This document shows, one piece after another, positions 9,085 to 38,567 of a stretch of 48,030 nt of DNA (the stretch's first letter is position 1; each line of letters begins with the position of its first letter). A program made the translations under genes and the position numbers. The notes beneath the pieces are model-generated. The model did not search any database. It saw only the letters and a program-made list of their open reading frames with translations, and was not told the DNA's origin. The stretch comes from Candidatus Magasanikbacteria bacterium CG10_big_fil_rev_8_21_14_0_10_36_32 (GTDB lineage: Bacteria > Patescibacteriota > Patescibacteriia > Magasanikbacterales > GWA2-37-8), in the NCBI GenBank assembly GCA_002778465.1, contig PFBV01000005.1:71534-119563 (forward strand), in the 5' to 3' direction.

Positions 9085-9099
9085 AATTATATATTTTTG

Positions 9100-9494
9100 T
9101 GGAAGTGGCGAGAGTTGAACTCGCGTCTAAAAAACCACAACCTTACCTTCTACATGCTTAGTCTTCTTATTTTTTTAACCGGGCAAATCAAAGAAAACGA
9201 AAGCTTGACCGGCGAGCCGGAGAATTGTCGTTTGTTTTATACCGGCGGATAAAACATTCCAAGCCCAATGGTTTGCGCCGCCTTCAGTTATTAGGCGTCA
9301 CTGAGACGACGGAAGCCGCTAAATTAAGCAGCTACAGGCGCGAAGCTGTAAGCCGGGCTAAAAGCACTGGCAAAAGCAGCTTTGGCCTTTGAAAATAAGT
9401 TGGCACTTATTAGTTGCCCCAACAATTAACGAGGACTGAGGCCTCCTCGGCATGCCAACAAAATCGTAATTTTCTATCGAAACCCATCACCCCC
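9100..9494 (-). ncRNA. ssrA: tmRNA
   Basis: 5' GGGGGTGATGGGTTTCGA, 3' GCGAGTTCAACTCTCGCCACTTCC-A pairing with GGGGGTG; internal tag ORF ending GTAGCTGCTTAA; adjacent smpB. Confidence 0.95.
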
Positions 9495-12759: not shown

Positions 12760-13581
12760 TTACTCGGCCAACTTGGCCATCTTTCGGAAAGCGAGCTTTT
12801 GCAGGTCGCTTCCGGCCGGTGCGAATTTATAGACCCATTTCCAGTCGTAGTAATCCTCGGCTGTCTGGGACATTTTGATTAGCACCATTTGGAAAGTTTT
12901 TTGACTGTTTTTGCCATCTTCGTAATATGTTTTTATGGCAATATCAAGCCAGTTGTCGAATGATGGGGTCAGTTTGTTCAGCTTCTCGAGCGCCAGCGGA
13001 CGGTAGTAAGTGTTGTCGGTGTCGCTTGGGGGTGACATTTTAAACACCCATGTCCAGTCGTCGGTGGTAACGGCTACATCCGACATTTGGTACAGTGAAG
13101 TGAAAAACATGTCTTCATCGTCGTAGCGTGAAGCAAGAGTTACATGGAACCAACTGTGAAAATCACCGGATACATCGGCCATATCAAACATTTTTAGTCT
13201 GGCGGCATTGGCCAGCGCGGTGTCATTCGTTCTGCTGGCGAGCAGATATGCTTCAATAAATTCGTCGGAGATAACTGCCAGACCGAACATTTTGTGAGCG
13301 ACGGTGTTTTCAAGGTCGCCACCCCAATTGGCGCAAATGCCGACTTGATCCCAGTCGTCAAACGATTTGGCCGTCTTGGCCATTTCCACAGCTGCGGCGT
13401 GTCTCACGGATTCGTTGCTACTGCTGTGGCAAATATTGTTGTAGTTTTCGAAATTTGCCGGCGGTTCATTGACTTCGACGGCGAGGTTATTTTCGCCGCC
13501 CAACGACGGATTGCATCCGTGGATCAGGAATGACATCATGAAAAAAACCAGAATGGTGAACATTACGTAAAAACGAGTCAT
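12760..13581 (-). CDS. Cassette C: lipoprotein with imperfect ~32-35 aa helical-type repeats
   Basis: Signal peptide with lipobox-like FLIHGC; repeated pattern A..KM..(L/M)A..(F/Y)DDW..V; SD AAAGGAGG. Confidence 0.85.
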   Translation of the reverse strand: MTRFYVMFTILVFFMMSFLIHGCNPSLGGENNLAVEVNEPPANFENYNNICHSSSNESVRHAAAVEMAKTAKSFDDWDQVGICANWGGDLENTVAHKMFGLAVISDEFIEAYLLASRTNDTALANAARLKMFDMADVSGDFHSWFHVTLASRYDDEDMFFTSLYQMSDVAVTTDDWTWVFKMSPPSDTDNTYYRPLALEKLNKLTPSFDNWLDIAIKTYYEDGKNSQKTFQMVLIKMSQTAEDYYDWKWVYKFAPAGSDLQKLAFRKMAKLAE

Positions 13582-37470: not shown

Positions 37471-37491
37471 TTGTTCCTCCTGTTTGTTGTT

Positions 37492-37498
37492 AAAGAAC
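37492..37498 (-). promoter_or_regulatory. boxA-like GTTCTTTAACAA, 5' copy of cassette E (directly after tRNA-Glu)
   Basis: tRNA 3' end-CCA-AAAAAAA-GTTCTTTAACAACAAACAGGAGG. Confidence 0.65.
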
Positions 37499-37508
37499 TT
37501 TTTTTTGG

Positions 37509-37580
37509 TACCGCCAAGGGGAATCGAACCCCTATAACAAGCTTGAGAAGCTTGTGTCCTAACCGTTAGACGATGGCGGC
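37509..37580 (-). tRNA. tRNA-Glu (CTC)
   Basis: GCCGCCATCGTCTAACGGTTAGGACA...anticodon loop TTCTCAA...GGGGTTCGATTCCCC; CCA follows at 37506-37508. Confidence 0.95.
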
Positions 37581-37644: not shown

Positions 37645-37669
37645 GACCACCCCGATAAACGAGATGGTC
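37645..37669 (-). terminator. Terminator of cassette F
   Basis: GACCATCTCG/CGGGGTGGTC 10-bp stem incl. G-U pairs, then TTTT. Confidence 0.65.
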
Positions 37670-37721: not shown

Positions 37722-38012
37722 TTAGAGCAAGTTGCTCTGGTCGATGTTGTTATACAATTTTGTGACATCTTCATCAGTGATAGATCCTGTTCTTATCAGA
37801 AAGTTCACCGTGATGTATCCGCCGTTTTTTGTTTCGAACGGATCGGATTTTATTTCGTTTGACTCCAAGCCGTCGTTGTAATATTCAACACCCTCACAAT
37901 TAGGCATGTCATCCGTATAATTTTCGTGATAATAAACAATGTGTCCATGATATTCAGCTGTGATATTGGGGTCGTCGAAATCGTGTCGGCTTTCTATGAT
38001 GAATCTGGCCAT
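37722..38012 (-). CDS. Cassette F: small acidic protein, unknown function
   Basis: 96 aa; SD AGGAGA; boxA-like and palindromic leader upstream. Confidence 0.75.
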   Translation of the reverse strand: MARFIIESRHDFDDPNITAEYHGHIVYYHENYTDDMPNCEGVEYYNDGLESNEIKSDPFETKNGGYITVNFLIRTGSITDEDVTKLYNNIDQSNLL

Positions 38013-38047
38013 TTTTTTATCTCCTATTGCATTTAAGGTTTATATTT

Positions 38048-38104
38048 AAAGAACGTTTGTTTTTCTACCCTTGTTTCAACTCGGAACTAGTTCCGAGTTG
38101 AAAA
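38048..38104 (-). promoter_or_regulatory. Cassette leader module copy 1 (hairpin + GTTCTTTAA)
   Basis: TTTTCAACTCGGAACTAGTTCCGAGTTGAAACAAGGGTAGAAAAACAAACGTTCTTT; contains 30-bp perfect palindrome. Confidence 0.75.
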
Positions 38105-38178
38105 GGGGTGGCGAACTTGGTAAGCGTGTTCGCCGGAGACGTTGGGAGGAGAGTTGAATGTCAGCAGGGGGGGTCGAG

Positions 38179-38277
38179 CTAGGCGACGATGCAGACCACG
38201 GTTATGATCAGGAACGCTGTGCTGACGATCATGGCCACCTGTTTAACGGTCAGCTTTTTCGTCTGATAGAATACCAT
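38179..38277 (-). CDS. Cassette G, second small ORF: 32-aa single-TM peptide
   Basis: MVFYQTKKLTVKQVAMIVSTAFLIITVVCIVA; overlaps upstream ORF by 28 nt. Confidence 0.4.
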   Translation of the reverse strand: MVFYQTKKLTVKQVAMIVSTAFLIITVVCIVA

Positions 38278-38390
38278 ACGGCCTTCATCAACGAATATAG
38301 ACCCATGCCAATCATGCCCAAAACGATGCCTGCCGAAACGAACAGAAGCATTAGTATTAGTGGACCGCATTCTACGAAAAACTCGTACAT
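38250..38390 (-). CDS. Cassette G, first small ORF: 46-aa single-TM peptide (not in ORF track)
   Basis: MYEFFVECGPLILMLLFVSAGIVLGMIGMGLYSLMKAVWYSIRRKS; SD AAAAGGAG 7 nt before ATG. Confidence 0.65.
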   Translation of the reverse strand: MYEFFVECGPLILMLLFVSAGIVLGMIGMGLYSLMKAVWYSIRRKS

Positions 38391-38407
38391 TTTTTTCTCC
38401 TTTTTGA

Positions 38408-38464
38408 AAAGAACGTTTATTTTTCTATCCTTGTTTCAACCCGGAAGTAATTTCGGGTTGAAAA
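38408..38464 (-). promoter_or_regulatory. Cassette leader module copy 2 (hairpin + GTTCTTTT)
   Basis: 50/57 identical to copy 1, offset exactly 360 nt, with compensatory stem change. Confidence 0.75.
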
Positions 38465-38538
38465 ATTTAAGTAAATTTTTAAATTGCTGGGTTGCTCACA
38501 TGTTGGAAAATAACTTTTCCATTTATTCGCAACTGAGA

Positions 38539-38567
38539 ATTATAACATATTTTGTGGATTTTGTCAA
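38539..38567 (-). promoter_or_regulatory. Promoter of tandem cassettes G-F
   Basis: TTGACA-17-TATAAT on minus strand. Confidence 0.85.

Follow-up and report, generated by a model that had tools for sequence, protein, structure and literature searches.

The question raised by this locus is why two nearly identical short segments of DNA stand in front of two open reading frames (ORFs) that have nothing in common with each other. The segments, at positions 38048-38104 and 38408-38464 of the window (the whole stretch of 48,030 nucleotides that was analysed, taken from a source genome of 879,704 bp in six contigs), lie on the minus strand, each 5' of an ORF. As the preliminary description had stated, they are 50/57 identical (88%), are placed 360 nt apart and are followed by ORFs, F and G, without mutual similarity. 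In a search of the whole 0.88-Mb genome one copy matches the other at E = 9e-15, and neither sequence search nor a covariance model (CM) built from both copies finds a third. The reading that we consider probable, if far from secure, is that a hairpin-boxA leader was duplicated locally and is one instance of a boxA-type leader class found before accessory genes, NusB-S10 being the factor that would bind the boxA part.

Two leaders in a putative transcription unit

Judged from sequence signals, both leader copies would belong to a single transcription unit extending from a promoter at 38567-38539 to a terminator at 37669-37645. The features of this unit and of its neighbour, in the direction of transcription, are as follows.

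38539-38567, minus strand: predicted promoter TTGACA-17-TATAAT with a TG extended -10, which would drive the unit (12/12 consensus match)
38408-38464, minus strand: leader copy 2, 57 nt, consisting of hairpin, linker AAGGATAGAAAAATAAAC and GTTCTTT (repeat comparison; fold z -2.5)
38434-38463, minus strand: hairpin of copy 2, with 12/13 pairs kept on this strand and an A.C mismatch at columns 12/21
38408-38414, minus strand: boxA-like core of copy 2, reading GTTCTTT and continuing with TC in place of AA (sequence; genome-wide class)
38250-38390, minus strand: ORF G1, 46 aa, one transmembrane segment, ribosome-binding site (RBS) AAGGAG, orphan
about 38179-38277, minus strand: possible transmembrane ORF G2 of 32 aa, in overlap with the 3' end of G1 (low coding score)
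38110-38134, minus strand: extra hairpin in the interval from ORF G2 to leader copy 1, with arms GGCGAAC and GTTCGCC spaced by 11 nt (fold z -4.2)
38048-38104, minus strand: leader copy 1, 57 nt, consisting of hairpin, linker AAGGGTAGAAAAACAAAC and GTTCTTT(AAA) (repeat comparison; fold z -4.3)
38074-38103, minus strand: hairpin of copy 1, palindromic without mismatch over 30 bp
38046-38054, minus strand: boxA-like element GTTCTTTAA of copy 1 (sequence)
37722-38012, minus strand: ORF F, 96 aa, acidic and soluble, orphan (no relatives detected)
37645-37669, minus strand: predicted intrinsic terminator closing the unit, 10-bp stem and T-rich tail
37490-37498, minus strand: neighbouring boxA-like element GTTCTTTAA (continuing CAAC), after tRNA-Glu and 5' of the orphan ORF 37470-37078

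Scored for coding potential, F (0.10) and G1 (-0.07) lie within the range seen for conserved short genes, whose 5th percentile is -0.23, but on the low side of it. No homologue of F was found in 57 relatives, GTDB contigs or phages, and none of G1 in plasmids; a weak PHROG match of G1 to a holin (E 0.014) was not counted as evidence. The description of G as small transmembrane peptides applies clearly to the ORF at 38390-38250, and the second, overlapping one (about 38277-38179), which appears in the mechanical ORF list in a longer form (38179-38370), is possible. Beyond the terminator, a few bases after the tRNA-Glu gene (37506-37580), come GTTCTTTAACA, an RBS and the 130-aa orphan ORF 37470-37078 (minus strand), which may be transcribed from the tRNA-Glu transcript and has GTTCTTT and a terminator again 3' of its stop codon.

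The GTTCTTT(AA) word marks a class of orphan genes

The final 7-9 bases of the repeat, GTTCTTT(AA), are frequent in leaders of this genome. There are 55 occurrences of GTTCTTTAA, 24 of them outside predicted ORFs, and within 120 nt before start codons it is found 23 times in the sense and 3 times in the antisense orientation, compared with 0-7 on either strand for shuffled words; perfect GTTCTTTAACA words occur elsewhere in the genome 12 times. The shorter GTTCTTT is found within 90 nt before the starts of 63 genes in sense (11 antisense) and within 35 nt after the stops of 35 genes in sense (4 antisense), in the latter case 2-28 nt from the stop codon. The two placements are associated, since 16/63 genes with a 5' element also carry the 3' one, against 19/902 of those without (p=2.5e-11); one gene with both is found at 12760-13581 of the window, minus strand. 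A terminator follows GTTCTTT at 30/35 of the 3' sites, compared with 232/873 other genes (p=1.4e-12). At the other end, the word starts 5-9 nt past the -10 box in 20/149 strict promoters, and the same spacing is seen in 10/135 strict promoters of a relative of the same family (G013); control words within 20 nt of the -10 box number 0-1 for four of five words and 3 for the fifth. The 5' placement is seen in G013 and the 3' placement hardly (9 vs 4), and in the genomes of the family and order promoter-plus-element arrangements are more numerous than matches to a reversed pattern used as control. A ranking of k-mers over the whole genome did not single the word out among intergenic 8-mers; the tests of strand and position did. 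A role of the 3' element in read-through into the next gene was considered and set aside, the downstream gene being co-oriented in 18/30 cases vs 128/231 (p=0.7).

The genes that carry the element differ from the remainder of the genome. In a tblastn comparison with the 844 kb of G013, no homologue was found for 43/48 genes with a 5' element (ORF F is among the 48), against 353/917 other ORFs (p=9e-13). Their GC content is 0.42 vs 0.36, a shift that persists among orphans (0.416 vs 0.363, p=8e-8), lipoboxes are present in 10/47 of them vs 21/861 others, and N-terminal hydrophobic segments are enriched. Because the ORF calls are mechanical (longest ORFs with an RBS-based choice of start), individual members of this set may be wrong. 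What is observed of the element, besides its sequence, is enrichment, strand bias, fixed spacing and an association with orphan, GC-shifted, lipoprotein or membrane genes. In the standard order a sigma70 promoter with an extended -10 would come first, then GTTCTTTAA at or adjoining the point where transcription begins, an RBS, a lineage-specific ORF and its stop codon, often with GTTCTTT again immediately 5' of an intrinsic terminator. The proposal that the leader is a standard part and the ORF variable cargo is accordingly supported at genome scale for GTTCTTT(AA), which precedes dozens of unrelated orphan ORFs with constant spacing from the promoter, but not for a family of 57-nt leaders.

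Such an arrangement invites the question of whether DNA is exchanged at GTTCTTT, or at the longer leader, so that foreign ORFs are brought in between a resident promoter and terminator. This would account for the element flanking many ORFs at both ends, for the orphan status and raised GC content (0.42 vs 0.36) of the genes and for the succession leader-G-leader-F, which resembles an inserted cassette. It would also fit the leaders and terminators common to unrelated ORFs: several leaders of 62-77 nt that are 83-87% identical precede ORFs without similarity, and an identical 46-nt element-plus-terminator is common to two neighbouring genes. However, a word of 7 nt is very short, and it keeps to set places relative to the -10 box and to terminators, which one would expect of an RNA or initiation element. 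Integron cassettes likewise consist of tandem unrelated small ORFs with a palindromic repeat between them, and the attC core sites, RYYYAAC and GTTRRRY, lie 3' of each ORF. Here the repeat precedes the ORFs, its arms read TTTCAAC and GTTGAAA and do not conform to that consensus, and neither an integrase nor another recombinase was identified. The leader had been suggested as a functional or recombining unit; we regard such an exchange of DNA as unlikely.

A still less likely reading is that GTTCTTTAA is an initially transcribed sequence, with G at +1, that influences initiation or promoter escape without binding Nus factors. The spacing of 5-9 nt to the -10 box does place the G near +1, but the same word is also found between stop codons and terminators, and its occurrences in the repeat are some 125 nt away from the promoter or internal to the transcript.

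Fold and relatives of the 57-nt leader

The remainder of the leader is dominated by a 13-bp stem. On the ORF strand both copies fold better than their shuffles (z -4.3 for copy 1 and -2.5 for copy 2), and neither hairpin scored terminator-like when assessed as an intrinsic terminator (hairpin plus T run). Two changes between the copies had been taken as signs of selection on RNA structure. The double change from T-A to C-G is present, at columns 9/24. The supposed change from G-C to G-U falls at columns 12/21 and appears as G-U only on the plus strand; because both ORFs are on the minus strand, where it reads A.C, the pair is broken. What is left is one compensatory pair, a score that 249/500 shuffles also reach, and with two sequences a structure slid by -1 has an identical covariation score. 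Moreover, where a palindrome is near-perfect, one double change may also be the product of template switching between its arms. The argument from covariation is weak and had been overstated.

The proposed check, a search with a CM of both copies, was run over the genomes of the class and yielded only these two copies in their own genome and matches at E<=0.1 in 22/383 other class genomes, where ~38 would be expected by chance. Leader patterns sought in 384 class genomes matched at chance positions outside the own genome. The 14 GTDB-contig matches to GTTGAAACAAGGRTAGAAA come from scattered phyla and the upstream stem of the leader is in none of them; the stem pattern has 4 matches in viruses, none with the element downstream. 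At the gathering score, Rfam models detect only tmRNA and tRNAs (the tmRNA gene, with tag ANLFSKAKAAFASAFSPAYSFAPVAA, is at 9099-9494 of the window, minus strand). The freshwater-2 model RF02980 was rejected as a candidate, with 24.6 and 16.4 bits vs a gathering score of 49.9 and with matching letters that are largely RBS and start codon; a search with it over 192 genomes gave no match anywhere, its controls likewise being without a match, and is given no weight. Because the CM, pattern and ORF searches gave no relatives, the test for a conserved RNA family failed: the leader is without homologues beyond its two copies and its covariation equals that of controls. The leader was copied locally, and a family of whole leaders is not supported.

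These results would also suit a recent local duplication without function, in which the leader was copied once, has not diverged and acquired its double change via template switching between the arms. Two copies only, no homologues and weak covariation speak for it. The leader nevertheless keeps 50/57 bases alike between ORFs that are without any similarity, and its 3' end coincides with the genome-wide element, which makes a functionless copy very unlikely in our judgement. Least probable of the readings considered is a DNA operator, in which a dimeric regulator would bind the palindromes and so keep them conserved; the 30 bp of copy 1 are palindromic throughout, centre included, and the change at columns 12/21 keeps G-U on the non-ORF strand only, but the palindrome of copy 2 is imperfect, both copies are well within the transcript and conservation in the non-palindromic 26-nt part equals that in the arms. 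As a separate observation, a 24-nt palindrome, AAATACCCATTTAAATGGGTATTT, is repeated at several gene ends on three contigs of the genome (C2, C3 and C6).

Comparison with boxA, and a possible role of Nus factors

Our preferred reading, a duplicated leader in which a 13-bp hairpin and an A-rich linker are followed by the boxA-like GTTCTTT(AA), each copy preceding a small orphan ORF in what would be one transcription unit, draws on the comparison with boxA, the site of NusB-S10. The gamma-proteobacterial boxA consensus is GYTCTTTAANA (PMC5725501), which GTTCTTTAAAT of copy 1 matches at 10/11 positions and GTTCTTTTCAA of copy 2, where TC replaces AA after the core, at 9/11. BoxA sites in mRNA leaders number 0-7 per gamma-proteobacterial genome and have a role tied to Rho, examples being those of suhB in Escherichia coli and of a ParE-like toxin gene in Citrobacter koseri (PMC5725501). 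They resemble the present element in their core, GYTCTTTAA, in their position 25-65 nt before the start codon and in the unrelated genes downstream (PMC5725501), and differ from it in that here ~50 genes in 0.88 Mb carry the element, which is promoter-locked and repeated before terminators in a genome where no Rho RNA-binding domain was found. The promoter and the sense-strand bias place the element, like a boxA, in sense orientation and upstream of genes, within what would be transcribed sequence. NusB is encoded in the genome (PF01029, E=7.9e-39). The Rho RNA-binding domain, PF07497, was absent from this genome and from 27/27 genomes of the family and order, and the same search found it in 9/14 control genomes; because no such domain was found, Rho antitermination, or any role in opposing Rho, is unlikely.

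Binding of the element by NusB-S10 is plausible on these grounds. NusB-S10 would bind it on the nascent RNA and tune the expression of accessory genes, through control of access to the RBS or through modification of RNA polymerase. More tentatively, it is possible that in ultra-small bacteria that appear to lack Rho a boxA-type word tags the start and the terminator of mostly secreted or membrane orphans, which would constitute a Nus-factor regulon or a cassette for newly acquired genes; we know of no established role for a boxA directly before terminators. The two-copy leader would by itself be a local curiosity, but the boxA-like word sets ~50 orphan genes apart from those that are conserved in this minimal genome. 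Should Nus factors bind it, these bacteria would control accessory genes generally, and without Rho, by a signal known from rRNA, and a role of NusB-S10 beyond antitermination would become testable, with GUUCUUUAA and GUUCUUUAACA as candidate element RNAs. In related genomes the element would also help to tell which orphan genes are real and where they start.

For the hairpin, two known arrangements serve for comparison. Lambdoid nut sites have boxA first and then the boxB hairpin. Many other leaders in this genome resemble them in having a short A/U-loop hairpin 3' of the element (n=34, mean stem score 8.8 vs 4.9 for shuffled sequences, p=2e-4), a result that is only suggestive because promoter leaders without the element also have an excess of hairpins, although a smaller one (p=0.02). 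The two leaders studied here differ from nut sites in having the hairpin 5' of the element, and to our knowledge no N-like protein is known here. Among the mRNA leaders this order is peculiar to these two copies. It is the order of rRNA operon leaders (boxB-boxA), which share with the repeat a hairpin, an A-rich linker and a boxA. The rRNA leader of this genome, inspected 5' of the 16S gene at about 65,800-66,120 of contig C2, has a hairpin followed by AAGGTGTAGAAA, with AAGG-GTAGAAA before boxA, and then boxA-like AGTACTTTGACAAC; the repeat differs in not being 5' of rRNA, and the mRNA element and the rRNA boxA are not identical, since the rRNA leader has AGTACTTTGACAAC and not GTTCTTTAA. In the two copies the element lies within the transcript, so that the upstream hairpin may, as we conjecture, act either as a boxB-like part or as an element of 5'-end processing or stability. 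The likeness of the AAGG-GTAGAAA linker is not kept in the rRNA leaders of relatives, several of which have hairpin arms like AAAAAAGAG and CTCTTTTTTCTTT and then a boxA-like TTGACAA stretch.
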